Shown here one piece after another: positions 3,253 to 47,870 of a DNA stretch of 58,370 nt. The position numbers were made by a program, and so were the translations under genes. The notes beneath the pieces are model-generated. The model saw only the letters and a list, made by a program, of their open reading frames with translations. It did no database searches and was not told where the DNA came from. This DNA is from an uncultured Rikenellaceae bacterium (GTDB lineage Bacteria > Bacteroidota > Bacteroidia > Bacteroidales > Rikenellaceae), in NCBI GenBank assembly GCA_944326945.1, contig CALVFY010000016.1:1-58370 (forward strand). The letters run 5' to 3'. Each line of letters begins with the position of its first letter. Position 1 is the stretch's first letter.

Positions 3253-3265
3253 TACCGCACACATC

Positions 3266-4861
3266 ATGAAAAAACTATTATATTCCGCCGCCCTGGCGCT
3301 CCTAATCCTTCCGTCCTGCACCGACATGCTGATGGAAGACAACAAGGTAAAGGTAAGTTCGGACTATGTCTTCAACACCCCTGACGGACTAAGCCGTGCA
3401 TCCATTGCCCTCTACAATCTGGAACGGACCATCCTCCAGACTTCCAGTGCAGGACTGTTCGCAGTCCTGATGTTCGACGCCCCTTCCGATATCATGGTAT
3501 GCCGTACAGGAGGCGGCGTGGAGTTCAGCCGTTCAAACTTCCAAACGTCCAACACACTGATCCTCGCATTCTGGACCAACCGGTACAATATTATCGGCAA
3601 AGCCAACGAAATCATCGCCGGAGCGGAACGGCTCGGATTGGAAGACCCCGTCGTCAAACAGGCCTGGGGCGAAGCCAAACTATTCCGGGCCCGAATGTAT
3701 TTCGACCTGTACCGCCGTTTCGACCGGTTGTATCTCAACCTGGAACCCACGACAGTAGACAACCTGGAACGGGTATTCACCCCTACCCCCACGGAAAAAA
3801 TTTTCGAAACGATCAATAAAGACCTGGACGACGCCATGGAAGCACTCGACTGGCAACCTACCGGAAACGCCGCACAGGGATACGAATACGGACGCATGAC
3901 CCGAACGATCGCCAAACATGTCAAAGCCCAGGTAGCCATGTGGCAGGAAAATTGGGACGAAGCGATCAAACAGTGTGAAGACATCTTCCAGTATAGCGGT
4001 TACAGCATGGAAGAGAGCGCCATTGTCAACTTCCAAGGCGAAAATCTCAACACGAAGGAGAACCTGTATGTCTTCCAGTTCTCCGAATCGGTCGCCGGAG
4101 GAGGCACAGTGGCTGAAGCGGGCGTAATCACCGGACATCACATGTCATTACACACCACCCCCCGATACGACATGGCCGGTCTGCTCTACTCCGCCGAATA
4201 CGGTGGCTACGGCTGGGGACGCCACTATCCCAACTACTACCTCTTCACGCTTTACGACCAAGCAAAGGACAAACGTTACAACGAACTGTTCCGCCACCAG
4301 TACATCAACAACAATCCGTCCAGTCCCGATTACGGGAAAGTTGCTACCTGCGAACCGTCGAAGTTCGTGGAACGGCTTCACCCGATGAGCATGAAATACT
4401 TCGACCAATGGACGAATGCCGACGTACCCTCCCGCCGATACAGTTTCAAGGATATCGTCATCTACCGGCTGGCGGAGACTTATCTGATCGCTGCCGAGGC
4501 TTATATGCGCAAATACGGAGGCAGTCATGCCAAAGCGATAGAATATTACAACAAGACCTGGGAACGTGCCGGGAACGACCATGAAAACGGCCCTATCACA
4601 CTGGACATGATCATCGACGAAGACGCCAGGGAATGTTGCTTCGAAGGGACTCGCTGGTACCTTCTCAAACGGGTAGGCCAGCTCAAGGAACGGGTCAGGG
4701 CCCATTACGGGGAGACTAGTGAAGAAAATCCGCTGATGTCGGGCACCTTCGACCACTCCCGCCGCAATTTCGAAGACAAACACCTCTGCTGGCCCATTCC
4801 GCTCTCCCAAGTGGACATGATGGGACGGGAGAACTTCCCCCAGACTGAAGGCTGGGAATAG
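3266..4861 (+). CDS. SusD-like surface glycan-binding lipoprotein
   Basis: The protein has 531 residues and a lipoprotein signal (MKKLLYSAALALLILPSC). It has the RagB/SusD layout: TPR-like helices in the N-terminal half (for example KQAWGEAKLFRARMYFDLYR) and a C-terminal region with DIVIYRLAETYLIAAEAYMR and a characteristic ending (CWPIPLSQVDMMGRENFPQT). SusD proteins bind glycan at the cell surface and cap the partner SusC. It is read in one transcript with the SusC upstream and is followed by a strong intrinsic terminator. Confidence 0.95.
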   Translation: MKKLLYSAALALLILPSCTDMLMEDNKVKVSSDYVFNTPDGLSRASIALYNLERTILQTSSAGLFAVLMFDAPSDIMVCRTGGGVEFSRSNFQTSNTLILAFWTNRYNIIGKANEIIAGAERLGLEDPVVKQAWGEAKLFRARMYFDLYRRFDRLYLNLEPTTVDNLERVFTPTPTEKIFETINKDLDDAMEALDWQPTGNAAQGYEYGRMTRTIAKHVKAQVAMWQENWDEAIKQCEDIFQYSGYSMEESAIVNFQGENLNTKENLYVFQFSESVAGGGTVAEAGVITGHHMSLHTTPRYDMAGLLYSAEYGGYGWGRHYPNYYLFTLYDQAKDKRYNELFRHQYINNNPSSPDYGKVATCEPSKFVERLHPMSMKYFDQWTNADVPSRRYSFKDIVIYRLAETYLIAAEAYMRKYGGSHAKAIEYYNKTWERAGNDHENGPITLDMIIDEDARECCFEGTRWYLLKRVGQLKERVRAHYGETSEENPLMSGTFDHSRRNFEDKHLCWPIPLSQVDMMGRENFPQTEGWE

Positions 4862-5003: not shown

Positions 5004-5813
5004 ATGAAACCTTCTGCCAACCTGTCCAACATCCGGAATTCAGTTCCACAGCCCCTCTGTCTGTTCGTCACGGAGAGAAAGACGGCAGAGATCCAGCGAC
5101 TTTGCAGGGCGCTAACCGTTCCATTCAGCCTCATAATGGCCTGCGGAGGGAAGGAAGGGTACCGCAAAGCGACCGAACTACAACCTCAAATCATCCTCTG
5201 CGACAATCTGTTATCGGAGCGACAGGGCCTGCAGTTCTGCCAATCGGTCAAACAGAATCCCATCACAGGCGACATTCCCGTCATACTGCTGTCGCCGGCC
5301 GACAACCGCCAGGAACTCATCGCGGCCCTGCAAGCCGGAGCTGACGCCTGTGCATCGCCCCGCGACACCGACCTGCTGATCTGCCTATGCGACAACCTTC
5401 TGCTGAACAGACAGCGCATCCGCACGAAATACCTATCGGACTACATACTGGAACACGGCATCATTCCCGGCAATTCGTCCGGTCACAAACTCTTCTCAAA
5501 AGCGATACGAATAATCGGCAAACATATCGACGACGCCGACTTCGATTCCCGCCAGTTCGCACAGGAGATGGGATTGAGCCGCACCAACCTGTTCGCCCGG
5601 ATCAAATCGCTCACCGGCCTGACCCCCCACGAACTCGTTCTGAAAATACGCCTGAGACAGGCCCGGATCAAACTCATCAGCCATCCGGAAATGAACATGT
5701 CAGAAATCGCATACGAAACCGGATTCAGTTCACCCGGCTATCTGATCAAATGTTTCAAAAAAGCTTACGGCAAACCACCCAAGGCCTACCGGAAAGAGGC
5801 TCTTTCCCGCTAA
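5004..5813 (+). CDS. AraC-family regulator with degenerate receiver domain (HTCS output half without sensor)
   Basis: This 269-residue protein has a CheY-like receiver (about 17-135) and a C-terminal AraC double helix-turn-helix (about 160-265, with FAQEMGLSRTNLFARIKSLTG and MSEIAYETGFSSPGYLIKCF). This is the layout of the last third of the hybrid two-component regulators that control Bacteroidota PULs, but the sensor, kinase and membrane parts are absent. The receiver keeps the phospho-acceptor Asp position (D67 in IILCDNLL). One of the usual paired acidic residues is replaced (T23-E24), and the conserved Lys of the usual TKP motif is Ser118 (ASPR). Classical phospho-activation is therefore doubtful. 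It stands alone between the SusD terminator and the convergent GH3 gene and probably controls the neighbouring SusC/SusD or operon genes. That role is inferred from position only. Confidence 0.8.
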   Translation: MKPSANLSNIRNSVPQPLCLFVTERKTAEIQRLCRALTVPFSLIMACGGKEGYRKATELQPQIILCDNLLSERQGLQFCQSVKQNPITGDIPVILLSPADNRQELIAALQAGADACASPRDTDLLICLCDNLLLNRQRIRTKYLSDYILEHGIIPGNSSGHKLFSKAIRIIGKHIDDADFDSRQFAQEMGLSRTNLFARIKSLTGLTPHELVLKIRLRQARIKLISHPEMNMSEIAYETGFSSPGYLIKCFKKAYGKPPKAYRKEALSR

Positions 5814-5837: not shown

Positions 5838-8447
5838 TCAGGGATTCCTGACTTCAATCTCGCATTGAACGACCTGTTTCGACGCCAATGAACGCGGAGA
5901 GGGTTGAGCGCCGCCGACCGACACAAGCAACGTGCCCGGCCTCACCAGCGAAACGTTATTTTCGTCACGGTAAGCTATCTGCTGCGGAGTCAGCGTGAAT
6001 TCCACGCGTCGGCTCTCACCCGGTCTCAGGCGGATGCGCCGGAATCCCTGTAGCGAACGCAGAGGACGGTCTTTCCCCTTGAGTGAAAGATAAAGCTGAA
6101 CAACTTCGTCTCCGGCCCGCCGGCCGCTATTGCGGACCGTAACGGAGAGCCGGACGCTGTCACCTGCGGCAATCGACGAGGGCACCCGGTTGAATTCATA
6201 CTCGAAAGTCGTATAGCTCAATCCGTAGCCAAATTCATAGAGGGTTTCACCACGGAAATAGCGGTAGGTACGGCCGTCCATGTCGTAATTATCGAAAGCG
6301 GGAAGCTGGGCGACATCCCGATAGAAAGTAACAGGCAGACGTCCCGAAGGATTGTAATCACCGAACAGGACATCGGCAATAGCCGTACCGCCCTGCTGCC
6401 CGGGATACCACGCCTCGACTACGGCCGAAACGAGCCTCGCCTCCTCGCCCACGGCCAGCGCACTGCCGTTGAGCAGCACCAGGACCGTCGGCTTGCCCAA
6501 CCGATGAATTTCACGGATCAGTTCGCGCTGAGAAGCAGGCAACCGGATATCCAACCGATCCCCTCCCTTGAAACCTTCAACACGCACCGGCATCTCCTCT
6601 CCTTCAAGTCTGGCGCTCAGGCCCATGCACAATACCACCAAGTCGGACGAGGCGGCCAGACGCAGTGCCTCCTCCTTCAGATCGGGCTTGGGAGGTTCCC
6701 ACAGCAAACGCATGGTTGCATACTCCGTATTCCGCTGCCGGTACTCGATTCGGATATCGTAAGAACGTCCTCCCTCAAGCCGCAGGCTCTTATATACCTT
6801 ACTCGGATGATGGACCGACTTCCAGCCCGTCAGACGCTCTCCGTCCAAATAAAGATCGAATCCATAGTATCCTTCACCCCCCAATTCATACTCTCCGTCC
6901 GCAGGGGGGACGAAAATTCCCTTCCAGACCACGGAAAAATCATCGTACTTCATATCGGGGAAGGGTGCCGAAACGCCCCAGACGAAATCGACTTCTGTAT
7001 CCGTGCACCGATGAAGCGGAGTACCCTTCAGCTCCCCATTTCCATAATATTCGGCTCTCAACCCCTGTTCCATCCTGGACTCGTCGGTAAACAGACACGA
7101 TGCGGGAACAGGTTCCAGATAGGGCAGTTCGTCCGCCAGCGGACACCCCTGCGCAAACGCCACTTCAGCCCGGGGCAGTTTCTCCCGTATTCCCTCCAGC
7201 GGAGTGACATACCGGCTCGGATAACCGTTATAATTTCCCAATAACACTTCCGGATCGTCGGCATTCGGACCGATAACGGCCACTTTGCCGACCTTTTTCG
7301 ACAGGGGCAGCGTCCCGTCGTTCTCCAGCAACACAATCGACTTGCGGGCCGCGTCGAGGGCAAGCTGCCGGTGACGACGGCTGTCAACCACCGAAATCGG
7401 TATTTTGGCATACTTCACCTTGCGGGGCGGATCGAACATTCCCAGTTTCATCTGAGCCGTCAGGATCCGGCCGACCGACACGTCCAACTCCTTCTCCGTA
7501 AGCAAACCTTTCCGCACCGCATCGGCCAGATGATAGGCGTACACCTCACCGCAGTTCAGATCGGTTCCTGCCCGGACCGCCATCGCAGCCGCCTCTGCTT
7601 GGGTCTCCACCACATGATGTGAACTTTTCTGATAAAAATCGGCTATAGCTCCGCAGTCGGAGACGATGTATCCCCTGAACCCCCAGTTCCGGCGCAGCAG
7701 GGTCTCCAGAAAATGACTGCCGCAACAAGGTGCCCCTCTAAAACGCTGATAGGCGCACATCACCGAGTAGACATCAGCCTCCTGCACCACCTTGCGGAAA
7801 TGGGGCAGATAGGTCTCTTCCAGGTCATACTCGTTCGGCCAAACGTCGAACGAATGACGCGTAGATTCGGGTCCGCTGTGCACAGCGAAATGCTTGGCCG
7901 TAGCCACGAGTTTCAGATACTTCGGATCGTCCCCCTGGAGTCCCCGGATAAAGGGAACGGCCAATTCCCCGGTCAGGTAGGGATCCTCCCCATAGGTCTC
8001 CATTCCCCGGCCCCAGCGGGGATCACGGAAAATATTGATATTCGGAGTCCAATAGGTAAGTCCCTGATAAATCCCCCGTTTCCCCCGGGAAGCGAACTCA
8101 TGATGTTTGGCCCGTGCCTCGTCCGAAATAGCATCGGCAATGCGGAACATCTCCTCCCGGTCCCACATGGCGGCCATCCCAATTGCCTGCGGAAACACGG
8201 TAGCCCTACCGGCCCGGGCCACACCATGCAGACATTCATTCCAGTAGTTATGGGCGGGAATTCCCAGCCGGGGAACACCCGGAGAGTCGTAGCGGAGCAA
8301 GGCGACCTTCTCCTCCAGAGTCAGCCGGGACACCAGATCGGCAACTCTTTCCTCAAAACTCAATTCGGTATCCCGATAGGGTACCTGTCCTCCGACGCCC
8401 TTCACAACCAGGAAAGCCGCCAAAAACACAAAACAGTATCTTTTCAT
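5838..8447 (-). CDS. Secreted GH3 family beta-glycosidase with PA14 insert
   Basis: The protein has 869 residues and an N-terminal signal peptide. The GH3 (beta/alpha)8 domain occupies about 25-330. It contains KHFAVHSGPESTRHSFD near 185-201 and the nucleophile motif IVSDCGAI with Asp264, a form common in beta-xylosidase and beta-glucosidase-like GH3 members. The alpha/beta sandwich follows and is interrupted by a PA14 domain (about 461-587, GLRAEYYGNGELKG onward). A candidate acid/base lies in LEGEEM (614-619). A fibronectin III-like domain ends the protein (about 750-865). It is the last gene of a ten-gene operon and starts 3 bp after nagA. It should trim a beta-linked sugar from a glycan in the periplasm or at the surface; the sugar cannot be deduced. 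Confidence 0.92.
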   Translation of the reverse strand: MKRYCFVFLAAFLVVKGVGGQVPYRDTELSFEERVADLVSRLTLEEKVALLRYDSPGVPRLGIPAHNYWNECLHGVARAGRATVFPQAIGMAAMWDREEMFRIADAISDEARAKHHEFASRGKRGIYQGLTYWTPNINIFRDPRWGRGMETYGEDPYLTGELAVPFIRGLQGDDPKYLKLVATAKHFAVHSGPESTRHSFDVWPNEYDLEETYLPHFRKVVQEADVYSVMCAYQRFRGAPCCGSHFLETLLRRNWGFRGYIVSDCGAIADFYQKSSHHVVETQAEAAAMAVRAGTDLNCGEVYAYHLADAVRKGLLTEKELDVSVGRILTAQMKLGMFDPPRKVKYAKIPISVVDSRRHRQLALDAARKSIVLLENDGTLPLSKKVGKVAVIGPNADDPEVLLGNYNGYPSRYVTPLEGIREKLPRAEVAFAQGCPLADELPYLEPVPASCLFTDESRMEQGLRAEYYGNGELKGTPLHRCTDTEVDFVWGVSAPFPDMKYDDFSVVWKGIFVPPADGEYELGGEGYYGFDLYLDGERLTGWKSVHHPSKVYKSLRLEGGRSYDIRIEYRQRNTEYATMRLLWEPPKPDLKEEALRLAASSDLVVLCMGLSARLEGEEMPVRVEGFKGGDRLDIRLPASQRELIREIHRLGKPTVLVLLNGSALAVGEEARLVSAVVEAWYPGQQGGTAIADVLFGDYNPSGRLPVTFYRDVAQLPAFDNYDMDGRTYRYFRGETLYEFGYGLSYTTFEYEFNRVPSSIAAGDSVRLSVTVRNSGRRAGDEVVQLYLSLKGKDRPLRSLQGFRRIRLRPGESRRVEFTLTPQQIAYRDENNVSLVRPGTLLVSVGGAQPSPRSLASKQVVQCEIEVRNP

Positions 8448-8450
8448 CGT

Positions 8451-9611
8451 CTATCGTTTAACGGGAACACCCGCTTTTACAATCTCCAGGATATTCAACT
8501 CGCCGTCCAGCAGCAACAGGTCGGCCCGGCTTCCCGGTCCTATTTCGCCCAACCCCTTCAGCCCGAACAGTCGGGCCTGATTCCAAGAAGTCATCCCGAC
8601 CGCATCGGACAGAGTGGTTCCCCAGCGGATCAACTGTCTGAAATTGCCATACATCGTGGCGACACTTCCCGCGAAAGCCGTCTTATCGGGCAACCAGGCC
8701 ACCCCTTCGTCCACGATCACGTCCATGTCACCGAGCTTATAGATCTTTTCCGGATCCTCCGGAAGACCCGCACACCGCATGGAATCGGAAATAATAAATA
8801 TATCCTCTTTTCGCTTGTTATGCAGAATGAAGTCCCAGAAATATTTCGTAATATGTTTCCCGTCGGCAATCACCTCCACACCCACCCCGTCGGTCATAAG
8901 CGCCATTTCCAACGTCCCGAGGTGCTTTCTGCCCCCGACTCTCCGGAAAGAGGAAGTCACGCAGTAAATGTGGGTCACCATGCGGATGCCTCGGGAAAAG
9001 CCCTCGGTGATCCTTTCGTCTATCGTCTCGTCATGCCCGCAGGCAGGAACGATACCCGATTCCACCAACCGTTCCAGCAGGCGTTCCGACTGGGGTGTGT
9101 GATACGAAAAGGTGACCATACGGATAATGTCGGCATATCGGTCGATCATCTCCAGGCTCGACCGCTCTGGCGGAATACAATACACGGGATTCTGTGCACC
9201 CAAATTCGAACGCGAAAGCCACGGTCCCTCCAAATGGATGCCGAAACACTCGGCCATCTCTCCCTGCCTCGCCCTCCGGCGGTTTTCGGGCAAAAACCGG
9301 GCGGCCGTAGCAAGTACCTCCTCCGTTTTCGGAAGAGAGTCCGTGACAGTGGATGCCAAAAACGACGTGGTTCCATTCCGCAGATAGAACCGGCCCATAG
9401 TCTCCAGAGCCGTCACCGAACCATCCATCAACTCACAACCATCCCCGCCATGCGTATGGATGTCGATGAAACCGGGTACAGCATACTCGGCCGCACCGTT
9501 CGGAAGCGGAACGCTCTCCTCCACCCCAACGATCCGACCATGGTCGACGGTCAACATGCAATCGCGTTGTACACGATCCCGATTGACCAGATATTTTACG
9601 AAAAACTGCAT
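8451..9611 (-). CDS. Divergent NagA-like sugar N-deacetylase (proposed N-acetyl-6-sulfo-sugar deacetylase)
   Basis: This 386-residue amidohydrolase is homologous to N-acetylglucosamine-6-phosphate deacetylase. The residues matching the metal site and catalytic Asp of NagA are present: H52/H54 (DIHTH), E128 (HLEGP), H193 (CGHDET), H214 (VTHIY) and D276 (ISDSM). Deacetylase chemistry should therefore be retained. The loop that in E. coli NagA carries the phosphate-contacting Asn-Ala and Arg (HLYNAM...GREPG) reads HIYCVTSSFRRVGGRKHLG here. It differs from E. coli and from the second NagA in this window. There is no signal peptide, so it is cytoplasmic. It shares the operon with NagB-like, transketolase and RpiB-like genes and no kinase. 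I infer that it acts on a GlcNAc analogue bearing sulfonate or sulfate at C6. The conservative alternative is ordinary NagA. Confidence 0.85.
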   Translation of the reverse strand: MQFFVKYLVNRDRVQRDCMLTVDHGRIVGVEESVPLPNGAAEYAVPGFIDIHTHGGDGCELMDGSVTALETMGRFYLRNGTTSFLASTVTDSLPKTEEVLATAARFLPENRRRARQGEMAECFGIHLEGPWLSRSNLGAQNPVYCIPPERSSLEMIDRYADIIRMVTFSYHTPQSERLLERLVESGIVPACGHDETIDERITEGFSRGIRMVTHIYCVTSSFRRVGGRKHLGTLEMALMTDGVGVEVIADGKHITKYFWDFILHNKRKEDIFIISDSMRCAGLPEDPEKIYKLGDMDVIVDEGVAWLPDKTAFAGSVATMYGNFRQLIRWGTTLSDAVGMTSWNQARLFGLKGLGEIGPGSRADLLLLDGELNILEIVKAGVPVKR

Positions 9612-9632
9612 ACCCTTATCTTTTCTTGTCCA

Positions 9633-11462
9633 TCAGATGACGAAAACACCCTTTCCCCGGTGTTCCCGGAAAAACCGTTTCAGTTCGTCCGTCAACCGGT
9701 AATCTCCACGGCGACCCTCCTCCACGCACTGTCGCTGCTGAAGGATGCTACGTCGCACATACTCCAGCATCAGTTCAACGCGACCGAGATGACCGGCCGT
9801 CACGGAATCTGCACACCGGGCACGGGCCTCCGACACCTGTCGGAGCACTTTGCCGACCCGGGCCGAATAGCCATCGTAAGTCTCCAGCGATTTAGGCGAT
9901 GAGTCTGCAAAATAACACCCCTGACGCACCACCTCCTCCAGCATCGCATACACGGAATCCATCAACGGAGCCTCCTCACGATAAAGTTGGCACGTGTAGG
10001 TATGCATCAGACTGTCCACATCCGTCTCCGGGCGACAGGCCAAGTGACCGAGCACGTAATAGTTGGGACCGTAGGCGAACCAGTCTCCCGGCTCGGAATA
10101 GACGGAAATGCCCTGCATTCCCGCATCCCTAAAATATTTCAGTTCGTTTTGCAGATAGTGGGGAAACACGTTGGGCAGACTGCGCCATTTGTATTTACGG
10201 TAATAGGAATAAATGCTGATATCGCCTTCGAATTCAGCCCGCCATCGGGCGAGATCGCGCGCAAATGATTCGTTCGCCGGGACTCCCGTTTCGTAAAACT
10301 GCTTCTCGTAATTCTGGGTCACCGGACAAAAGTCGAGCAAGACGTCCGGATCGAGGCGGATACCCTCGGGCGGGGTTACATAACGGCTGTATGCCAGACA
10401 TTCCAGGGTCACGCCGGGACATTCCTTTCGCAGCACCTTGGCCATCTGGTTCACCAATTCGAAATGACGCCGTTCGGGGGAGTTTTTCCGGCACTCGGGA
10501 CACATGCACCAACGTTCCATGTCGGGAGGCCAAAAATCGAATATCTCGATCTCCGGATGCGATTTCAGGTAAGCGACTACGTTATTCTGCAAGTAACGTA
10601 CCGCATCGGGATTCGTCGAACAGAACACCATGTGCTTGTCGGGCGTCCTCCGGCCCTTTTCATCCATGCCGAACCACTCGGGATGCATCCGAAACAGACG
10701 TCCGCCCTCCATCTTCGCATTCAGGAAATTCTCGTACCCGTGACCGCCCACTTCGATGACGATCCCCCGCGCTTCCAATTCGGGAATCAGCTCCTCCCGC
10801 CAATTGTCCCAGCGTACACGGCCAGAACCCTGGTAGTCGATCGGAATAACCAGCGTATTGAACCCGAGTTTGGGCATCCAGTCGATCAGCCGTTTCAGAC
10901 TCTCCGTATCGTGAGACTTGCCCTCCTCCACATAGAGTTTGCGGTATTTCAATCCCGGTTCACCGACGGCATCCCCTCCGTACCGGTAAACAATATCCGT
11001 CCGGGTAGGTACGTACCGAGAACGACCTTCATAAAATCCAAAATCGGGAGCAATCCATCGGCATCCCAACTCTTTCAAGAATCCATATACGGCATAACAG
11101 ACGGCCCGGGGAGAACCTCCCGACAGAACGACATCGTCCCCGCGCACAAAAATACCAAACTGTTCCCCGTTCAGCAAAGGCATCCCGTCCACGAAATCAG
11201 CCTCCGGGTCGCCACCTACGAAAATCGCCGGCCGGTCAGTCGGTTGCCGCCTCACTGAGAACTCCGCCCCACCGATCTCCTCCAGATAATCGGCCAGTTC
11301 CCGGGCGGCAAAGCATTCCGCAGGAGAAGCCTCCGGAGTGATCACAATATCGTACAGCGCCTTTCCCTCCGAAGTCAACCGCAACCGCGTCTCGCCACAG
11401 GCCATGCACGAAAACACAACCAACAAGAGGAGCACGCATCTGAAAAAAGTCTCTCTTTTCAT
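9633..11462 (-). CDS. DUF4838 lipoprotein, probable glycoside hydrolase
   Basis: The protein has 609 residues with a lipoprotein-type signal (cysteines at 19 and 22). An N-terminal domain (about 28-140, with SPAECFAARELADYLEEIGG) resembles the alpha-glucuronidase N-terminal domain, which often precedes catalytic barrels. The rest (about 165-500) matches DUF4838, with CSTNPDAVRYLQNN, FDFWPPDMERWCMCPECRKN and a YSYYRKYKWRSLPN region. DUF4838 proteins have a barrel-like fold related to glycoside hydrolases; their substrates are mostly unknown to me. It sits between nagA-like and nagB-like genes (21 bp and 4 bp gaps), so it is a good candidate for the enzyme that releases the operon's sugar. Confidence 0.8.
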   Translation of the reverse strand: MKRETFFRCVLLLLVVFSCMACGETRLRLTSEGKALYDIVITPEASPAECFAARELADYLEEIGGAEFSVRRQPTDRPAIFVGGDPEADFVDGMPLLNGEQFGIFVRGDDVVLSGGSPRAVCYAVYGFLKELGCRWIAPDFGFYEGRSRYVPTRTDIVYRYGGDAVGEPGLKYRKLYVEEGKSHDTESLKRLIDWMPKLGFNTLVIPIDYQGSGRVRWDNWREELIPELEARGIVIEVGGHGYENFLNAKMEGGRLFRMHPEWFGMDEKGRRTPDKHMVFCSTNPDAVRYLQNNVVAYLKSHPEIEIFDFWPPDMERWCMCPECRKNSPERRHFELVNQMAKVLRKECPGVTLECLAYSRYVTPPEGIRLDPDVLLDFCPVTQNYEKQFYETGVPANESFARDLARWRAEFEGDISIYSYYRKYKWRSLPNVFPHYLQNELKYFRDAGMQGISVYSEPGDWFAYGPNYYVLGHLACRPETDVDSLMHTYTCQLYREEAPLMDSVYAMLEEVVRQGCYFADSSPKSLETYDGYSARVGKVLRQVSEARARCADSVTAGHLGRVELMLEYVRRSILQQRQCVEEGRRGDYRLTDELKRFFREHRGKGVFVI

Positions 11463-11466
11463 CAGT

Positions 11467-12315
11467 TTAGATCAATATAGGTGTTTTCAAGGTCTCCCTG
11501 TCCGTCACCACGAGCCAGTCGGGATGCTGTTTCAGATAGGTGACCGGATAGTCGTCCCCGGGAGTACCGAACAAGGCCAGCCGCAGCACAGTATTGGCCC
11601 AGTCGATCGAGGAGACGCCGTTCCGGCAAAAGATAATCATTTTCTCGGCAGCAAAAAGCTGATTCATTCCGAGTGTAAGCGCTTTTCTGGGAAAATTTTC
11701 AAGATTCCCCCCGATTCCTTCCCGAATCGCATTGATAGTCACCGTATAGTCGTTCAACCTCACCACGCGGGGATTGCTGTTCCGAACACCCGGTTCCGGT
11801 TCGTTGAAAGCCAGATGGCCGTGAATCCCCACGCCTCCGTAAGTCACGCAAAGATGTTCGGCCGCCAGCCTCTCTTTCAACTCCCCGATATTCCCGCTAT
11901 CAGGGAAAAGCACATTCGACAGATCGGGCAACAGAGCCCGATCAATCCGGGAAAACATCGCATACAGCTTTCTGCGGAAACTCAAAGGATGGTCCTGCGG
12001 CACCTCCCGGCCGTTTTCGTCACAATATTCATCCATAAAATAAAACCTCACATTCCCGAGAGGAATGCGTTCGCGGTTCACCCGCTCGATGAAATAGGGG
12101 TACTGACCGACCGGACCGAAGGGAAGTATCCAGGCCGTATCGCGGCCTGCAGCCCGATTGCTCAGGATCTGTTCGCACATTCCATCGGCGAAAAAACGAT
12201 GCAGTTCGTCCAGATCGTTCATCACGATCAGGTGTTCACCCGCCCGGTCAATGACCTCCTCCTCGCTCAATCCGTTGAGCAGGGCGATTTCTTTGGCTCT
12301 GGTAACAGTAGTCAT
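11467..12315 (-). CDS. Divergent NagB-like aminosugar deaminase/isomerase (proposed product 6-deoxy-6-sulfofructose)
   Basis: The ATG at 12315 is preferred because a longer frame would run into the transporter gene; the product has 282 residues. It keeps the NagB core: D95 in FMDEY (E. coli D72, the general base), H167 (H143) and E172 (E148). E. coli D141 is His165 in GVGIHGHLAFNEP, a position that is also Asn in other NagB proteins. The phosphate-binding parts are changed: the PTGGTP loop is PFGPVG (65-70), and the segment that carries E. coli K208 reads RNGVSSIDW (231-239) with no Lys. The alignments are by eye. I infer aldose-ketose isomerisation with loss of ammonia on a 6-sulfo-glucosamine, giving sulfofructose for the transketolase. 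Alternatively it is a diverged GlcN6P deaminase. Confidence 0.8.
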   Translation of the reverse strand: MTTVTRAKEIALLNGLSEEEVIDRAGEHLIVMNDLDELHRFFADGMCEQILSNRAAGRDTAWILPFGPVGQYPYFIERVNRERIPLGNVRFYFMDEYCDENGREVPQDHPLSFRRKLYAMFSRIDRALLPDLSNVLFPDSGNIGELKERLAAEHLCVTYGGVGIHGHLAFNEPEPGVRNSNPRVVRLNDYTVTINAIREGIGGNLENFPRKALTLGMNQLFAAEKMIIFCRNGVSSIDWANTVLRLALFGTPGDDYPVTYLKQHPDWLVVTDRETLKTPILI

Positions 12316-12322
12316 AGTCGTT

Positions 12323-13528
12323 TCAATATTTTTTAGGTTTATATCCTCGGAATGCAAAATACAAAATGACGAGATAGGCGGGCAGACAGACCAAATAGGC
12401 CAACTGGGAGGAATGCAGAGCATCGGTCGCAAGACCGTACAGCAAAGGGATGATCCCTCCGCCGAGACCTCCGGTCACGAGCAGTCCCGATCCCAGTTTG
12501 GTGAACGGTCCCAGACCTGCCAGTGCCAGAGGCCATATAGCCGGCAGGATGAGAGCATTGGCCAGTCCGAGCAGGGCGAGGAACCAAATCGACAACCGTG
12601 CAGGCACCACCACGAGCAGCATGCAGAACAACAGGCCTGCCAGCACGGACAGTCGCAGAGCCGTGAGCTGACTGATCGTTTTCGGAATCAGAACAACCCC
12701 CAGCAGGTATCCAACCACCATCGCCGCCGAAGTGAGCCATACGTAATTCTGCGGATCGGCCAATCCCAATTCGCTCGCATAGTGATTGATCGATCCAAGC
12801 GCCGTCACCTCGACCCCTGTATAGAAAAAATAGGCCAATACGCCCCAAACCAGATGCGGGTAACGGAAAATACCCGTCACCTTACAGTCCCCAGACACAG
12901 GGGCTTGCGGAGAGTCCTCACCTTCCGCCTCCAGTTCGGGCAAAGGCGCGAACCGGGAGGCGATTCCGAACAGGAAGACGATACAGGCGATCAGATAAAA
13001 CGGCAGAACGGTATCCTCCATTCGCACGTCGGACAGATCGAGAAACACGGCCAGAATGAGCGAAGCGGCCGCATAGGATATTTTGTTGCTGATCCCCATG
13101 ATGCTGATCCGGCGGGCGGCACTCTCCTGAGGACCAAGAATCGTGACATAGGGATTCACGGCCGTATTAAGCATGACCCTGCCGATTCCGTTAACAAACA
13201 AGGCTCCCAGAAACACGGCATAACTGAAGAAACTCGATGCCAGTCCAATCAGCGCGAAACTGATCGCCAGCAGGATGAAAGCCGTCACCATTCCCCCTTT
13301 GTATCCGATCCTTTTGAGCAACATGCCGGCCGGAACGCTGAACAGGACGAACGAAGCATAGGTAGCCATGAACACCATATAGGACATCGTGTTGGATATG
13401 CCGAACGCCTGCTTCACGAAAGGGATGAAAAAGGCGTCTATTCCCACGGCAAAACCCAGCACGGAAAACATTCCGACCATCACGAGCATCGGAAGAACAA
13501 GTGTTTTATCGGGTTGAGTAGTTTTCAT
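12323..13528 (-). CDS. MFS sugar transporter of the FHS (FucP/NagP-like) family
   Basis: This 401-residue protein has about 12 hydrophobic helices and the FHS signature region NGIGRVMLNTAVNPYVTILGPQESAARRISIMG. FHS proteins are proton symporters for unphosphorylated sugars at the inner membrane (fucose, glucose/galactose, GlcNAc). Its genes on both sides act on sugar in the cytoplasm, so it probably imports the N-acetylated sugar whole. The NagB ATG follows 7 bp after the stop, and the TSUP stop lies 12 bp upstream of the start. Confidence 0.9.
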   Translation of the reverse strand: MKTTQPDKTLVLPMLVMVGMFSVLGFAVGIDAFFIPFVKQAFGISNTMSYMVFMATYASFVLFSVPAGMLLKRIGYKGGMVTAFILLAISFALIGLASSFFSYAVFLGALFVNGIGRVMLNTAVNPYVTILGPQESAARRISIMGISNKISYAAASLILAVFLDLSDVRMEDTVLPFYLIACIVFLFGIASRFAPLPELEAEGEDSPQAPVSGDCKVTGIFRYPHLVWGVLAYFFYTGVEVTALGSINHYASELGLADPQNYVWLTSAAMVVGYLLGVVLIPKTISQLTALRLSVLAGLLFCMLLVVVPARLSIWFLALLGLANALILPAIWPLALAGLGPFTKLGSGLLVTGGLGGGIIPLLYGLATDALHSSQLAYLVCLPAYLVILYFAFRGYKPKKY

Positions 13529-13540
13529 ATTTTCAATGGT

Positions 13541-14272
13541 TTACAGAAAAAGCATAATAAGTCCGACGGCTCCCAGCGTCCAGAAAACGATCTTTTTGAA
13601 CAACAGTTCGTCTACCCGGCTGTGGACGAACTCGCCCACGAGGATACCGGCAGCAAGAAACGGAAGCAGAAACAACAGATCGCGTCCCAGTTCCGGAGTA
13701 AACTGTCCATCAGACCAGTAGCGGATCATCAACAGGGTATTGAGCGTAGCCCAAAGCATGCACATCGTGGCCCGGAATTCGGATTTCCCTGTCAGCTTCC
13801 GGGCGGAATAGAGAACGATCAACGGTCCGCCCGTGGCAAAAACTCCGTGTACGACACCTCCCACGAACAGATACAGATAACCGAGTGGTCCGGCCCCTCC
13901 GTATCTCCCCGCATAGAGACGCCATAGTTGCAAACCGGCCGAGAAAACGATAAAACCTCCCAATAGCCGCGTGAGCACAAGGGAATCGAGCGACCGAAAG
14001 AGCAGAAATCCGAAAGGCATTCCCGCGGAAGCGATCAGGCAAATGACAGCGAACTGCCGCCAATTTATCCGGCGGAACTGGGTGGAAACGATGTAAAGGG
14101 CCAGCAGCCAGGCCAGGATGCTGAGCACGATTTTCGAGAATCCGATATCGCCCGTAACGGCCAACACCAGCGGGAACGCCAGCACCGTACAGCCGAAACC
14201 CGTGACGGCTTCCAGCATGTGCGTGCAGAAAACGACCGCGCCCACCAGCAGCAGTATCGTCAGGGCCGACAT
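13541..14272 (-). CDS. TSUP (TauE/SafE) family membrane anion exporter
   Basis: The protein has 243 residues and about eight membrane segments. The TSUP repeats show as EAVTGFGCTVLAFPLVLAV near the N terminus and VGGVVHGVFATGGPLIVLY in the second half. Members export small sulfur-containing anions such as sulfite, sulfoacetate and other organosulfonates, and they occur in sulfonate-degradation clusters. The gene overlaps the upstream dehydrogenase gene by 13 bp, which suggests translational coupling of the last reduction with export. My inference is export of isethionate; another C2 or C3 sulfonate is possible. Confidence 0.87.
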   Translation of the reverse strand: MSALTILLLVGAVVFCTHMLEAVTGFGCTVLAFPLVLAVTGDIGFSKIVLSILAWLLALYIVSTQFRRINWRQFAVICLIASAGMPFGFLLFRSLDSLVLTRLLGGFIVFSAGLQLWRLYAGRYGGAGPLGYLYLFVGGVVHGVFATGGPLIVLYSARKLTGKSEFRATMCMLWATLNTLLMIRYWSDGQFTPELGRDLLFLLPFLAAGILVGEFVHSRVDELLFKKIVFWTLGAVGLIMLFL

Positions 14273-15429
14273 TTGGAGGCAATTATCCGGTTTACGACAC
14301 CCATGTCGAACGGGACGACGTTGTTTCCCATTTTTGGATCGTCCAAAGCCTTTTCGAAAAGCGGCTGAAGTTCTCCGGAACCGGCATGCACGCCAAGATC
14401 GGCGAAAGTGAACGGCAGACCGAACTTTCTTTTCAGTTCCACGATCCGGTCACGAAGCCTGTACAGCAGCAAATCGTGCGGCGCGTCGCCGAACAACGTC
14501 CGGGCAACCCCGGCCAGTTTCGCCGCCGTCGCAGAGTCATGCAGGTTTTCGAGCATCACATCTTCCAGCGAAAAGGCACAAGCCACCCCGTGGGGCACAT
14601 GCCACTCTTCTGACAGAATGAACGAAAGCGCATGGACCGCCGCCGTTCCCGTCCGATTGAAGGCGATGCCCGCCATACAAGCCCCTTCCAACATCTCGCG
14701 CCGCCCGTCAGCGGAACAGTCGAAGGCGGGTTCCATCCACCGAAGTATACGTACAGCGGCCTCCGCAGCCGCCCGATCGGACACCGGAGTCGCATTCCGG
14801 TTCCAAAGGGTTTCCAACGCATGGGAAAGCGCATCGAACGACGTGGAGGCAGTCAAAGGGGCCGGAAGGTCACTGGTATACTCGGTCACCAATACCGCTG
14901 CATCGGCCTGAAGCCACGGAGAAGCCAACGTGTACTTACGGCCCGTGCGGGCCGTATAGACTCCGAAACGGGTCATCTCCGAACCGGTCCCAGCCGTCGT
15001 GGGAATCAGAATCAGCTTCACGTCCCGTTTTTCGATCTTCCGGACCGGGGCGGGTCCCAGATAGTCGTCCAGATCGCCCCCGTTGCTCAGAACGGCTGCG
15101 ACTCCTTTGGCGGAATCGAGCGTGGAACCGCCTCCGATCCCGACTATCACATCCGTTCCCCGACCGGCCAAAGCACGAGCCATCGCCATGATATCGTCCA
15201 CCTTGGGATCGGGAAACACCCGGTTTTGACGCACCAAAGGACGCAGGGAGGCGAAAGCCTCCAGCATCCGGTCGCGAGGCCCGAACGGACGGTTGTCCTC
15301 GATCACGGCAACCGAAGCATCCGGTCCGGCACAATAGAGAATCAACCGGTCCAGGTCATCTGCGGTCAACCGGTCGGTACGTACGATACGGGTCGTAGTA
15401 AGCAACTGTTCGAACATGGCACCAGGCAT
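14260..15429 (-). CDS. Iron-type alcohol dehydrogenase, proposed sulfoacetaldehyde reductase
   Basis: This 389-residue group III metal-dependent alcohol dehydrogenase has the nucleotide motif GIGGGSTLDSAKG (97-109). The metal ligands are at D199 and H203 (SFDALSHALE), H266 (AAVHALS) and H280 (HVPHG). The family reduces small aldehydes with NAD(P)H, and members reduce sulfoacetaldehyde to isethionate in known sulfonate pathways. The ATG overlaps the RpiB-like stop (TAATG); an ATG four codons later is an alternative. Its place between the isomerase and the TSUP exporter fits reduction of the sulfonated C2 product with recycling of NAD+. The substrate is inferred from context. Confidence 0.87.
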   Translation of the reverse strand: MPGAMFEQLLTTTRIVRTDRLTADDLDRLILYCAGPDASVAVIEDNRPFGPRDRMLEAFASLRPLVRQNRVFPDPKVDDIMAMARALAGRGTDVIVGIGGGSTLDSAKGVAAVLSNGGDLDDYLGPAPVRKIEKRDVKLILIPTTAGTGSEMTRFGVYTARTGRKYTLASPWLQADAAVLVTEYTSDLPAPLTASTSFDALSHALETLWNRNATPVSDRAAAEAAVRILRWMEPAFDCSADGRREMLEGACMAGIAFNRTGTAAVHALSFILSEEWHVPHGVACAFSLEDVMLENLHDSATAAKLAGVARTLFGDAPHDLLLYRLRDRIVELKRKFGLPFTFADLGVHAGSGELQPLFEKALDDPKMGNNVVPFDMGVVNRIIASKCRP

Positions 15430-15908
15430 TAACGGGTAAACTGTTTCGATTCGAACGTCCGGATTTCATCAAGGAAACCGGCCAATGTCTTTTTCCATTC
15501 CGGGTCCACCCCGTCTCCGAAACGGGTGTTGAGCCACGCATCGACCATCTCGAAAGCATGTTCAGGCGGCGTGAGCCACTCCCCAAAGACCAGCACATTG
15601 CAGTCGTTGACGGCCCGGGCCTGCCGAGCCATATAGGTGTTGGTCACATGGACGGGATAAACTCCCTTGAATTTCGCCGCCGTAATGACGCTACCCGCCC
15701 CCGTGCCGCAGATAATGATTCCCCGCTCAAAAGCTCCAGAAGAGACCGCCTCACCGACCGCCATGGCTGCTCTGTGATAGGGGACAAATTCACCGTCCCG
15801 CCGCATACCCACGTCTTCGACATGAAATCCCTTCCGTTCCAGAAATGCGATGATCCTCTCCTTCAGGGTCAACCCGGCCCGGGTCGACCCGATAACGATT
15901 CTTTCCAT
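15429..15908 (-). CDS. RpiB/LacAB-family isomerase, proposed 4-deoxy-4-sulfoerythrose isomerase (SqwI-like)
   Basis: The protein has 159 residues and the RpiB fold signature. The catalytic Cys is present (C67 in ICGTGAG). Several ribose-5-phosphate isomerase B residues are not: the N-terminal SDHAG is STRAG (T9, R10); the CHDTYSA segment carrying the ring-opening His is VTNTYMA (T89, N90); and the C-terminal His/Arg phosphate cluster is replaced by DPEWKK (135-140). A C4-sulfonated erythrose has no free C4 hydroxyl and cannot form a ring, so loss of the ring-opening His fits an open-chain tetrose. In the sulfo-transketolase pathway a member of this family interconverts sulfoerythrose and sulfoerythrulose. 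The gene lies 5 bp after the transketolase C subunit. Confidence 0.88.
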   Translation of the reverse strand: MERIVIGSTRAGLTLKERIIAFLERKGFHVEDVGMRRDGEFVPYHRAAMAVGEAVSSGAFERGIIICGTGAGSVITAAKFKGVYPVHVTNTYMARQARAVNDCNVLVFGEWLTPPEHAFEMVDAWLNTRFGDGVDPEWKKTLAGFLDEIRTFESKQFTR

Positions 15909-15913
15909 ACTCT

Positions 15914-16855
15914 CTATTTTTTATTCGATACGATCTCCTTTGCCATACAAACGATATGTTCCGCCGTCAGTCCGAACCGCTCTTTCAGTTCATCCTGCAT
16001 TCCGACTTCCCCGAATTCATCGCAGATACCGACACGACGCAACCGGGCCGGATACTCCTCTGCCAACACCTCCGCCACGGCCGATCCCAGACCGTTCACA
16101 ATCTGGTGATTTTCGCAGGTAACGATCGCACCGGTCCTCTCAGCATACCTCAACACCAGTTCACGGTCGATCGGTTTGATCGTGTGCATATCGATCACCG
16201 CTGCCGAAACGCCTTCTTCGGCCAACAGCCGGGCAGCTTTCAGCGCTTCAGGTACCAGAATTGCACCGCAGGCGATCAGGGTCACATCCGTTCCATCGAC
16301 CAGTACCTTGCCCTTTCCCAGTTCGAACTCCTCATCGGGAAGGTAGACTGCCTCTACCGGTTTGCGGTGCAGGCGCATATAGGTACATCCGGAATGTACC
16401 GCACTCAATATCAACAACTTCTTTAGTGACACAGGATCGCACGGTTCGAACACCACCAGTCCCGGAATGTTGCGCATGATACCGGCATCCTCGAAAGGCA
16501 TGTGGGTTCCACCGTTGAAAGCGGCCGAAATGCCAGGATCGGTACCCACCAGTTTCACATTCTGACGGGCATAGTTCCCCGAAAGAAAAAACTGGTCGTA
16601 GACCCTGCGGGTGGCAAAACACCCGAAAGAGGTAGCAAAAGGAATCTTTCCCCCGGCCGAAAGTCCACAGGCGATACCCACCATATTGGCTTCCGCCACC
16701 CCCACATCGAACAACCGGTCTGGAAACCTTTCTCTGAATATTCCCGTACCGGAAGCCTTCATCAGATCGGCCTCCACAAGCACAATACGCTCATCGCGCT
16801 CGGCCATCTCCACTAATGTCCGGGCATATACCGCCCGCATCTCCTGTTTTTCCAT
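15914..16855 (-). CDS. Transketolase C-terminal subunit (SqwH-like by context)
   Basis: This 313-residue protein has the transketolase pyrimidine-binding domain (about 1-170) with the catalytic Glu region FDVGVAEANMVGIACGLS, and the C-terminal domain (about 190-305, with DVTLIACGAILVPEALKAA). It retains GGTHMPFEDAGIMRNIPG and TYMRLHRKP, which line the sugar site in relatives. With the 276-residue N subunit encoded 11 bp upstream it forms a split, full-length transketolase. A split transketolase directly followed by an RpiB-like isomerase, an Fe-dependent dehydrogenase and a TSUP exporter matches the described sulfo-transketolase module. Confidence 0.92.
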   Translation of the reverse strand: MEKQEMRAVYARTLVEMAERDERIVLVEADLMKASGTGIFRERFPDRLFDVGVAEANMVGIACGLSAGGKIPFATSFGCFATRRVYDQFFLSGNYARQNVKLVGTDPGISAAFNGGTHMPFEDAGIMRNIPGLVVFEPCDPVSLKKLLILSAVHSGCTYMRLHRKPVEAVYLPDEEFELGKGKVLVDGTDVTLIACGAILVPEALKAARLLAEEGVSAAVIDMHTIKPIDRELVLRYAERTGAIVTCENHQIVNGLGSAVAEVLAEEYPARLRRVGICDEFGEVGMQDELKERFGLTAEHIVCMAKEIVSNKK

Positions 16856-16866
16856 ATTCCTCTATC

Positions 16867-17697
16867 TTATTTGGTTCCGGCCAAGCGCTCACAGGCTTCA
16901 CAGGCCAACGTGTAATCGAAATGCATATTATGGTTGTCCAGCCGTCCCTCGGCAAAAAAAGCCCCTTTTCCCTTGACCGTATCCAACACGATCATCGAGG
17001 GCCGTCCCTTTTCACGTTGCGCCCGTTCGATGGCAGCCGTAAGCGCCGCAAAATCATGCCCATCCACCCGCTGGGTAAACCAGCCAAAAGAGTCCCATTT
17101 CCCGCAGATGTCACCCAAGTCCATGACGTCTCGGGTATATCCGTCAATCTGCATCTTATTGTAATCCGTAAAGGCGATCAGATTGTCCAGTTTGTAATGC
17201 GCCGCAGCCATCGCTCCCTCCCAGACCTGTCCCTCCTGACTCTCTCCATCCCCGACAATCAGATAAACTTTCCGGTCGATCCCGTCCAGACGGTTCGCCA
17301 ACGCGATTCCTACTGCAGCAGAAATACCCTGTCCCAACGATCCCGTCGTCATGTCGATACCGGGAGTACGATTCATGTCGCAATGGCTGGGCAGCCAGGT
17401 GCCGCATTTATTCAGCGTATGGAGCCATTCCACAGGAAAGAACCCCTTGTCGGCCAGAACGGCATAGAGCGCCGGACCCGCATGTCCTTTCGACAGCACG
17501 AGCTTGTCGCGGACCTTTTTCCCGGGTTCCGACGGTGACACATCCATATATTTGTAATACAACGCTGTCAACACCTCCACCACGGAAAGTGCTCCGCCGA
17601 TATGTCCCACACCCAGATACCCGATCGCCTCGATGGTCATTCGCCGAATCTGGTTTGCCTTTCGCTCAAGGGCTTCAAATTCATCTCTCTTTTCCAT
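16867..17697 (-). CDS. Transketolase N-terminal subunit (SqwG-like by context)
   Basis: The ThDP-binding transketolase domain shows VGHIGGALS (usually GHPGG), LVLSKGHAGPALYAVLADKG, TTGSLGQGISAAVGIALA and the ThDP/Mg motif beginning GDGESQEGQVWEGAM and ending with Asn in FTDYNKMQIDGY. I take the ATG at 17697 (276 residues). A TTG at 17709 in the same frame is possible but would abut the operator. It is the first gene of the ten-gene operon. With the next subunit it would move two-carbon units to glyceraldehyde 3-phosphate, giving xylulose 5-phosphate. An isolated split transketolase in a catabolic operon is otherwise found in pentose pathways, which usually carry a kinase; none is present. Confidence 0.92.
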   Translation of the reverse strand: MEKRDEFEALERKANQIRRMTIEAIGYLGVGHIGGALSVVEVLTALYYKYMDVSPSEPGKKVRDKLVLSKGHAGPALYAVLADKGFFPVEWLHTLNKCGTWLPSHCDMNRTPGIDMTTGSLGQGISAAVGIALANRLDGIDRKVYLIVGDGESQEGQVWEGAMAAAHYKLDNLIAFTDYNKMQIDGYTRDVMDLGDICGKWDSFGWFTQRVDGHDFAALTAAIERAQREKGRPSMIVLDTVKGKGAFFAEGRLDNHNMHFDYTLACEACERLAGTK

Positions 17698-17742: not shown

Positions 17743-18744
17743 TTAGTCGTTAAATATTATTTTAGGAGAAATTATATTCCCCGACTTCGGAGCGTTTCCA
17801 TTCTCCCTGATATCGTTCAACAAGATGTCCACGGCGTTTTTCCCGATGATGTCCAACGGGATTCTGGCAATGTTCATCCGGGGAGCCAACACCCCCACGA
17901 TCGAATTCTCATGAATCGAGGCCATCCCGTATTTTCCGATATCCATACCGCTCTTGTACATATACATGACGGCTTCCGAAGCCAAATAATGAGCCGTGAA
18001 ACAGAAACCGTCCACATCGGGATTCCGATCGAACAACTCCTGTACGACCCGCCCTACATGGGCGGAATAGTCATTTCGGGGCACCTCGCAGTAGAGTGAA
18101 GGATCGAACGGGATACCGGCTGCATCCAGAGCTCGTCGATATCCCTCCAGACGGTCGGTAATAGCCGACACCTTCGTATCGGTCGTAATCAGGGCCACGC
18201 GCCGGCACCCTTTTCCGATCAGATGGCTCACCAATGTATAGGTGGTATGAATATCGTTGATGATCACATAATTGGTCTCCAGTTCGGGATAGATACGGTC
18301 GACCAGCACGAACGGAAATTTATCCCCCAGCAACCGGGCTATGGCTTTTTGCGAGTGTTCTGTCGCGGCAATGACCATTCCGTCTACCTGCCGTGCCCGC
18401 ATAGCCCGGATCAGTTTGACCTCCCGTTCGGGAATCCGCTCGGAACTCGCTATAATAATGGTATAGTTGCTCTTCTCTGCCTCCCGTTCGATCTCCTTGA
18501 CCAACTTCGCATAAAAAACGTCACCAATAGAGGGAATCAGCACGCCGATCATTTTCGTCACGCCGCTGATTAGGCTTTGGGCCAACTGATTGGGCTGGTA
18601 ATTAATCTTGTTGACATACTCAAGTATCCGCTCTTGCGTCTGCTTGCTGACCCCTTTCTGAATTCCGATCCCGGACAACACGAAAGAGACCGTCGTTTTA
18701 GACAGATTCAATTCTTTCGCTATATCCTTTATCGTGACAGACAT
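17743..18744 (-). CDS. LacI-family transcriptional regulator of the sulfo-sugar locus
   Basis: The start is set at the ATG at 18744, where the usual LacI helix-turn-helix begins (MSVTIKDIAKELNLSKTTVS), giving 333 residues; the frame could extend 18 codons upstream without homology. After the DNA-binding hinge (YQPNQLAQSLISG) comes a periplasmic-binding-protein-like effector domain (about 60-333). The gene precedes the transketolase operon on the same strand and is divergent from the ADP-ribosylglycohydrolase-fold/sulfatase pair. Near-identical operator-like palindromes precede all three units, so it is probably an autoregulated local repressor. The inducer may be sulfofructose or another pathway intermediate (inference). 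Confidence 0.9.
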   Translation of the reverse strand: MSVTIKDIAKELNLSKTTVSFVLSGIGIQKGVSKQTQERILEYVNKINYQPNQLAQSLISGVTKMIGVLIPSIGDVFYAKLVKEIEREAEKSNYTIIIASSERIPEREVKLIRAMRARQVDGMVIAATEHSQKAIARLLGDKFPFVLVDRIYPELETNYVIINDIHTTYTLVSHLIGKGCRRVALITTDTKVSAITDRLEGYRRALDAAGIPFDPSLYCEVPRNDYSAHVGRVVQELFDRNPDVDGFCFTAHYLASEAVMYMYKSGMDIGKYGMASIHENSIVGVLAPRMNIARIPLDIIGKNAVDILLNDIRENGNAPKSGNIISPKIIFND

Positions 18745-18768
18745 GATTGCAGGGAAATTTCTACGACA

Positions 18769-18798
18769 CAAAGCTACTATTATTTTTTTATATTCCAA
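18769..18798 (-). promoter_or_regulatory. Promoter of the lacI gene (Bacteroidota type)
   Basis: On the - strand the -7 box TAGCTTTG (18776-18769) matches TAnnTTTG exactly. A TTG at 18798-18796 sits 19 nt upstream as a -33 element. The expected start is about 18 nt before the ATG at 18744. Confidence 0.6.
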
Positions 18799-19012: not shown

Positions 19013-19050
19013 GTAAACTAACCGAAACATAATCTTCAAAAAACATGCAT

Positions 19051-20568: not shown

Positions 20569-20578
20569 ATCCGAGACA

Positions 20579-46992: not shown

Positions 46993-47097
46993 GTTCTTTC
47001 GGATTAAACTGTAAAGATCTTCCGACCTTTCCCTCATTTTTTCTCAAAATTAAGCATAAAATTCAAACCGGGCATCTTTCTTCTCGAGAATATTCCG

Positions 47098-47868: not shown

Positions 47869-47870
47869 GA

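Follow-up and report, generated by a model that had tools for sequence, protein, structure and literature searches.

A ten-gene operon from an uncultured Rikenellaceae bacterium that may degrade a sulfonated amino sugar through a sulfo-transketolase-like module

Introduction

Which sugar would call for an operon that encodes relatives of the amino-sugar enzymes NagA and NagB together with a split transketolase, an RpiB-like isomerase, an alcohol dehydrogenase (ADH) and a TauE/TSUP transporter? Such an operon lies in contig CALVFY010000016.1 of an uncultured Rikenellaceae bacterium (assembly GCA_944326945.1); the whole stretch analyzed, 58,370 nucleotides, is called the window here. Our sequence comparisons lean toward an operon catabolic for N-acetyl-6-deoxy-6-sulfo-glucosamine (N-acetyl-sulfoquinovosamine), which would be converted to sulfofructose and finally to isethionate. 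A route of this kind had been proposed in a preliminary description of the window. It is partly supported: by a lower half like that of the sulfo-transketolase (sulfo-TK) pathway, by the failure to find entry genes for sulfoquinovose (SQ) in the two carrier genomes at the cut-offs used, by altered phosphate sites and by NagB relatives that lie beside transketolase, sulfoquinovosidase (SQase) or deacylase genes in other genomes. One locus, L024, speaks against a fixed link between the amino-sugar and transketolase genes.

Results

Organization of the operon

In the list of open reading frames (ORFs) of the window, ten minus-strand genes run head to tail between 17709 and 5838; adjacent ones either overlap, by 13 bp at most, or leave gaps of no more than 21 bp. 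The single tight operon of the preliminary description, with gaps of at most 21 bp, was thus borne out by the ORFs and by the Pfam and NCBIfam families of their products, and so was its lack of a sugar kinase or aldolase, as neither family was reported in Pfam and NCBIfam scans of the ten proteins. The genes and the regulator that precedes them are given below; labels beginning with L denote loci.

17743..18798, minus strand: LacI-type regulator upstream of the operon; ORF with a 59% identical relative at the same place in L023
16867..17709, minus strand: N half of a split transketolase (TktN), SqwG/H-like; Transketolase_N at 1.4e-51, 69% identity to the L149 copy
15914..16855, minus strand: C half of the split transketolase (TktC); Transket_pyr and Transketolase_C, tree
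15429..15908, minus strand: RpiB-family isomerase, SqwI-like; LacAB_rpiB, tree support 98/96, RHxxR missing
14260..15429, minus strand: Fe-type ADH, candidate sulfoacetaldehyde reductase; Fe-ADH family, 45% identity to the L160 copy
13541..14272, minus strand: TauE/TSUP transporter, candidate isethionate exporter; TauE at 7.6e-18, 46% identity to the L160 copy
12323..13528, minus strand: FHS-type MFS transporter, candidate sugar importer; MFS_1, best NCBIfam model NagP (254 bits, cut-off 625)
11467..12315, minus strand: NagB-like deaminase/isomerase of a separate subfamily; nagB model 67 bits (cut-off 237), PDB profile match to glucosamine-6-phosphate deaminases
9633..11462, minus strand: DUF4838 protein with an N-terminal signal-like stretch, candidate glycosidase; DUF4838, structure model
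8451..9611, minus strand: NagA-like deacetylase; nagA model 180 bits (cut-off 226), metal-ligand positions kept
5838..8447, minus strand: glycoside hydrolase family 3 (GH3) glycosidase with PA14; Glyco_hydro_3, Glyco_hydro_3_C and PA14, absent from L023

The LacI-type gene is on the same strand as the N half of the transketolase, which starts at TTG 17709 or ATG 17697. The likely start of the NagB-like gene is ATG 12315, leaving a gap of 7 bp to the MFS gene. All NCBIfam models scored far below their cut-offs on the Fe-type ADH, and the GH3 protein reached 977 bits with the Xyl3A model (cut-off 1250). The model of the DUF4838 protein (predicted local distance difference test score, pLDDT, 91.6) resembles GH115, GH84, GH20 and GH67 enzymes at 8-16% identity, and in some relatives the precomputed annotation includes PF03648 and PF02838, which we take to be the N-terminal domains of GH67 and GH20; the protein is likely a glycosidase.

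The NagB-like and NagA-like proteins

The NagB-like protein matched no Pfam family at 1e-3, and its predicted structure has a pLDDT of 91.7, although no claim made here rests on that model. In all 33 aligned members of its subfamily the equivalents of D72, H143 and E148 of E. coli NagB, presumably catalytic, are kept, and in the same 33 members D141 is replaced by His. Compared with the E. coli enzyme, the PTGGTP loop lacks two residues and the stretch around R172 and K208 is remodeled; we assume here that D141, the phosphate loop, R172 and K208 have their usual roles in E. coli NagB. In the NagA-like protein E128, H193, H214, D276 and H253, which we take to be metal-ligand and catalytic positions, are invariant across six sequences including E. 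coli NagA. Profile searches of the PDB gave ordinary NagB and ordinary NagA as the nearest solved relatives.

The isomerase and the transketolase module

A tree of 16 isomerases placed the window protein with those of the SQ clusters L161 and L162 (98/96), and a further split (94/94) joined this group with L149, L150, L153 and L160, away from E. coli RpiB and three ordinary copies. The motifs RHxxR and DHxG, whose residues we take to bind phosphate in ordinary RpiB, are both present in these four ordinary copies. In a set of 5.8 billion proteins, 232 relatives of the isomerase passed 1e-15, and the best 120 of the 232 (59-100% identity, with Tannerella, Cryptobacteroides, Azobacteroides and Barb6XT among the names) had neither RHxxR (0/120) nor DHxG (0/120), while CGTG was found in 120/120 and [SC]TRAG in 117/120. 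By its sequence, then, the isomerase appears to be of the SqwI type of the sulfo-TK pathway. The phosphate-site positions are accordingly altered in both the NagB-like protein and the isomerase, and the idea that a sulfonate stands in for phosphate gained support from this comparison.

A TktC search of 198 Spirochaetota genomes gave matches at 1e-50 in 111 of them, with 54-67% identity for the top twelve; longer stretches were taken around 20 transketolase matches, and 16 of these were read. In the spirochaete locus L160, the genes for TktN, TktC, RpiB, ADH and TSUP follow the window order with 62, 54, 32, 45 and 46% identity, and no SQ gene was seen nearby. The operon thus holds both an Fe-type ADH and a TSUP protein of the sulfo-TK type, in the L160 order, with functions predicted from the sequence. 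L149 and L153 encode both transketolase halves, an RpiB-like isomerase, an aldehyde dehydrogenase, a Na_sulph_symp-type transporter and two CoA-ligase-looking proteins (by Pfam in L153, by eye in L149), and L153 additionally TauE, GH31 and an AraA/fucose-isomerase-type protein; the two look like the sulfoacetate-forming variant of the sulfo-TK pathway outlined in section 3.4 of PMC12890257. An isomerase-type protein, GH31, a Na_sulph_symp-type transporter, both transketolase halves and an RpiB-like isomerase 55-57% identical to that of the window make up L161, L162 and L164 (gene set by Pfam in L161, by eye in the others). With these neighborhoods and the isomerase tree, the proposal that the lower half is a sulfo-TK-like module was supported.

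In a TktC tree of 40 sequences, the window and L023 pair at 100/97 within a 14-row clade (99/92) that includes L149, L150, L153 and L160 as well as L151, L152 and L154-L159. A second clade (100/100) unites the NagB-linked copies of L044 and L046 with the SQ-linked L161-L164.

Search for sulfoquinovose entry genes

The genome of the window (G000, completeness 99.94%) and the genome holding L023 (G594) were searched with a six-row alignment of SQ isomerases of the SqvD/SftI type, and neither gave a match at 1e-15. A YihQ-type SQase, a frequent but not universal part of the sulfo-TK pathway, was looked for with the L057 protein as query: at 1e-30 nothing matched in G000, and G594 showed only weak GH31 similarity (138 bits, compared with 572 in G598). 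This search did not extend to SQases of GH188. As neither an SQ isomerase nor a YihQ-type SQase was found at the cut-offs used, sulfofructose should come from elsewhere, which agrees with the earlier suggestion that it is made here by a route other than isomerization of SQ.

Conservation and rarity of the operon

L023, from a Bacteroidales metagenome-assembled genome (JAAYJQ010000011.1), has LacI, TktN, TktC, RpiB, ADH, TSUP, MFS, NagB, DUF4838 and NagA in the window order at 51-76% identity, that is, nine of the ten operon genes plus the regulator, with GH3 missing. As this second genome keeps the order, the gene set is not, on this sequence evidence, a chance assembly. Both modules lie together in L023, as the preliminary description expected of other genomes; in L024, NagA, NagB and MFS genes occur without the transketolase module.

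The operon is rare in genome draws. The isomerase scored above the cut-off only in its own genome among 395 genomes of the phylum (1e-30) and 393 of the order (1e-25), and, in a draw of 299 from the family to which the L023 genome belongs, only in the L023 genome (1e-30); besides the query genomes, no further carrier of the operon was found in these three draws. The best match of the NagB-like protein outside its own genome, among 200 genomes of the window's family, was at 6.5e-18 and 31% identity.

Company of the NagB subfamily in other genomes

Scanning one genome per species for the NagB subfamily confirmed 125 places, and the 80 best, many of them short contigs, were retained. Before counting, an SQase match in L025 (23%) and a TktC match in L097 (30%) were dropped. 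Deacylase-type genes occur in 45 of the 80 loci (NagA 7, Amidohydro_2 32, PIG-L 6; Pfam confirmed Amidohydro_2 in L057 alone and PIG-L in L037 alone, the other members being assigned by tblastn), and in 40 they lie within 400 nt of NagB. A transketolase was found in 5/80, a transaldolase in 11/80 (partial in L036 and L038) and a YihQ-type SQase in 4/80; combined, 17 loci have at least one of the three, and 15 of these 17 also have a deacylase-type gene. None of 20 control loci of ordinary NagB from the window's family had a deacylase-type gene, transketolase, transaldolase or SQase. The Fisher p of 0.02 for the NagB loci against these controls is indicative only: the controls come from the window's family and do not represent the taxa to which the 80 belong, four controls are truncated (14-15 kb), and the query set was chosen after some of the 80 loci had been seen.

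The spirochaete locus L030 (Spirochaetales, 13 kb), which ends with TktN (61%) at the edge of its contig, also encodes NagB (53%), NagA (55%), an SQase, Gfo/Idh and an AraA/fucose-isomerase-type protein, together with ABC-transporter-looking genes. In Lokiarchaeota, L057 (3678-10846) encodes a YihQ-type SQase, an SftI-like isomerase, a dehydrogenase and a transaldolase, a set like that of the sulfo-transaldolase (sulfo-TAL) pathway for SQ in an Asgard archaeon, and along with it Amidohydro_2 and NagB. Its isomerase matches the sulfoquinovose-isomerase model NF048012 at 3e-68, below the model cut-off, and its dehydrogenase matches several models, among them sulfolactaldehyde reductase. The SQases of L030 and L057 gave 2e-186 and 2e-188 with E. 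coli YihQ, as against 3e-42 and 7e-42 with the next GH31 protein. L046, from Lentisphaerae, has an Amidohydro_2-type gene, NagB, an aldehyde ferredoxin oxidoreductase, Na_sulph_symp, both transketolase halves and an isomerase.

We considered whether the NagB-like protein could itself be the SQ isomerase; this is unlikely, as L057 and L078 also have an SftI-like isomerase and L030 an AraA/fucose-isomerase-type protein. In L046 the oxidoreductase gene (12850-14661) lies between NagB and the transketolase halves, the position taken elsewhere by the ADH or an aldehyde dehydrogenase. Gfo/Idh neighbors were found at 25 of the 80 loci, and by analogy with GH188 (PMC10755693) it is no more than an idea that they might be NAD-dependent glycosidases. 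By eye, the NagB loci L025, L062, L076 and L100 encode proteins resembling kinases of the FGGY and PfkB types, an FAD-linked oxidase and a cupin-type isomerase, and three of the four a class II aldolase; perhaps they belong to another amino-sugar pathway.

Discussion

Proposed pathway and points against it

In the pathway that we propose, the DUF4838 and GH3 proteins would release the sugar outside the cytoplasm and the FHS transporter would import N-acetyl-6-deoxy-6-sulfo-glucosamine. The NagA-like protein would take off the acetyl group and the NagB-like protein the amino group, giving 6-deoxy-6-sulfofructose, from which the split transketolase is predicted to move a C2 unit to glyceraldehyde-3-phosphate. 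The RpiB-like isomerase would turn sulfoerythrose into sulfoerythrulose, and a second transketolation would yield sulfoacetaldehyde, so that two xylulose-5-phosphate are predicted overall. The Fe-type ADH may then reduce sulfoacetaldehyde and the TSUP protein export the isethionate. With a sulfonate in place of the 6-phosphate, no kinase would be needed. On the simplest account, NagA and NagB would supply the sulfofructose that otherwise comes from the SQ isomerase, which would make N-acetyl-6-sulfo-glucosamine the sugar taken up.

Beyond this operon, we tentatively suggest, as a plausible extension, an amino-sugar branch of sulfoglycolysis in Bacteroidota, Spirochaetota, Lentisphaerota and Lokiarchaeota, in which a dedicated NagB subfamily would act with one of three unrelated deacylases (NagA-like, Amidohydro_2 or PIG-L) to convert an N-acyl-sulfoquinovosamine to sulfofructose for a transketolase or a transaldolase, and the sugar would be a widespread glycan building block so far unseen.

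Several observations weigh against the proposed pathway. The strongest one against a fixed link between the modules is L024, where only MFS, NagB and NagA are shared (63-64%) and the genes next in line encode GH92, a sulfatase and a 425-aa protein lacking any Pfam match (8635-17657). In that genome the best TktC match was 36% in a 655-aa frame, the best RpiB match was at 9.7e-14 and no transaldolase matched at 1e-10. Neither a transketolase nor a transaldolase nor an SQase was found in 63 of the 80 NagB loci, and in the L030 genome no close TktC and no SqwI-like isomerase was found. In the isomerase tree, the proteins of L044 and L046 (copy L106) sort with the ordinary copies. L152, L154, L155, L157, L158 and L159 share the TktC clade of the window with no isomerase or SQ gene seen beside them; transketolase alone is therefore not decisive, and we dropped its identity as proof of a sulfo-function. 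The transaldolase of L033 passes the TalC/FSA model and is nearer to ordinary transaldolases than to BmSF-TAL, which weakened the use of a transaldolase beside NagB as proof of sulfo-TAL. In addition, no report of sulfoquinovosamine in nature was found in a literature search that left most subscription papers outside.

Alternative substrates

If the substrate were N-acetylglucosamine (GlcNAc) 6-O-sulfate from mucin or glycosaminoglycans, the same enzymes would work on O-sulfates, and 2-hydroxyethyl sulfate would be exported by TSUP. We regard this as unlikely but as a serious rival, because GlcNAc-6-O-sulfate is a known and abundant sugar and sulfatase genes lie near some loci: near the operon in the window (20579-22192, other strand), in L024 and L047 and, by sequence clustering, at L033, L039, L052 and L057. 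The blocked 6-OH would likewise exclude a kinase, and a GH20 enzyme that binds 6S-GlcNAc (7dva) is among the structural matches of the DUF4838 protein. Sulfatases are, however, common in these taxa; the isomerase groups with copies of SQ clusters and has lost the phosphate motif, though an O-sulfate is shaped like a phosphate; and the NagB subfamily adjoins SQases and an SftI-like isomerase.

A sugar without an acidic group at position 6, such as free GlcNAc or N-acetylquinovosamine, would also explain an operon without a kinase and the altered phosphate-site positions of NagB, with the transketolase, isomerase and ADH ending in ethylene glycol or ethanol, and the kinase- and aldolase-like proteins seen by eye at L025, L062, L076 and L100 suggest other substrates in the wider subfamily. 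Since such a route leaves TauE/TSUP without a role for its neutral product and the isomerase clade is common to SQ clusters, we consider it improbable. That the operon merely combines ordinary GlcNAc-6-phosphate and pentose-phosphate enzymes that have diverged is hardly credible: the families are indeed those of phosphosugar metabolism, but the phosphate motifs are lost in the NagB-like protein and the isomerase, and the genome has another transketolase (C18, 636-aa frame, 32%) as well as other NagA and NagB matches.

Relation to known systems

Sulfo-TK sulfoglycolysis in Clostridium sp. MSTE9 comprises SqvD, SqwGH, SqwI, SqwF and SqwE (PMC12890257, section 3.4), and compared with that description the operon shares the split transketolase, the isomerase, a metal-dependent ADH, an exporter and the lack of a kinase. 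It differs in having NagA-like and NagB-like genes, and in that no SQ isomerase or YihQ-type SQase was found in the two carrier genomes. The taxa named for sulfo-TK in section 3.4 of the same paper do not include Bacteroidota. With the NagA/NagB route for GlcNAc the operon has both families, a deacetylase and a deaminase, in common, whereas the missing kinase, the His for D141, the shortened phosphate loop and the link to a transketolase set it apart. The sulfo-TAL pathway is touched through L057, where the same NagB subfamily lies beside a sulfo-TAL-like set, but the operon has a transketolase and no transaldolase, and the L033 transaldolase is not closest to BmSF-TAL. The sulfofucose pathway of Paracoccus wurundjeri also degrades a sulfosugar other than SQ; according to PMC12421959, it runs by Entner-Doudoroff type steps to sulfolactaldehyde and pyruvate and involves no amino sugar.

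The same literature search, with most subscription papers outside it, found no paper that joins sulfoquinovose with glucosamine-6-phosphate deaminase; sulfofructose and glucosamine co-occur in two papers that, judging by their titles, deal with comparative genomics. UDP-GlcNAc 5,6-dehydratases exist and UDP-sulfoquinovose synthase without sulfite has 5,6-dehydratase activity, according to PMC8987622; a biosynthetic route to a sulfonated GlcNAc is therefore conceivable. By chemical means, 6-sulfonates of GlcNAc within glycans have been obtained through oxidation of a 6-thiol (PMC12308420).

If the proposed pathway is right, sulfoglycolysis would also supply carbon and nitrogen from a sulfonated amino sugar and the sulfur cycle would have a new entry, with a second origin for isethionate, which other bacteria can convert to hydrogen sulfide. 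It would also hint at a glycan in nature for which no one has yet searched, and the existence of GlcNAc-6-sulfonate in nature becomes testable with two enzymes and one synthetic sugar.

Other genes of the window

Beyond the far end of the operon lie a TonB-dependent receptor gene and a SusD gene (178-4861), and between SusD and the operon end, on the plus strand (5004-5813), a regulator with a response-regulator receiver and an AraC-type helix-turn-helix. On the other side, opposite in strand to the adjoining LacI gene, 19045-22192 (plus strand) encodes an ADP-ribosylglycohydrolase-type protein and then the SGSH_C-domain sulfatase at 20579-22192. A second amino-sugar-type operon occupies 46090-56967 on the minus strand, with an esterase, a Glucosamine_iso NagB, a NagA-like protein, MFS, Gfo/Idh, a 676-aa protein without a Pfam match, fasciclin and SusD. 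Its NagA-like protein is 32% identical to that of the ten-gene operon, and its NagB matches the Pfam family that the NagB-like protein of the ten-gene operon misses.

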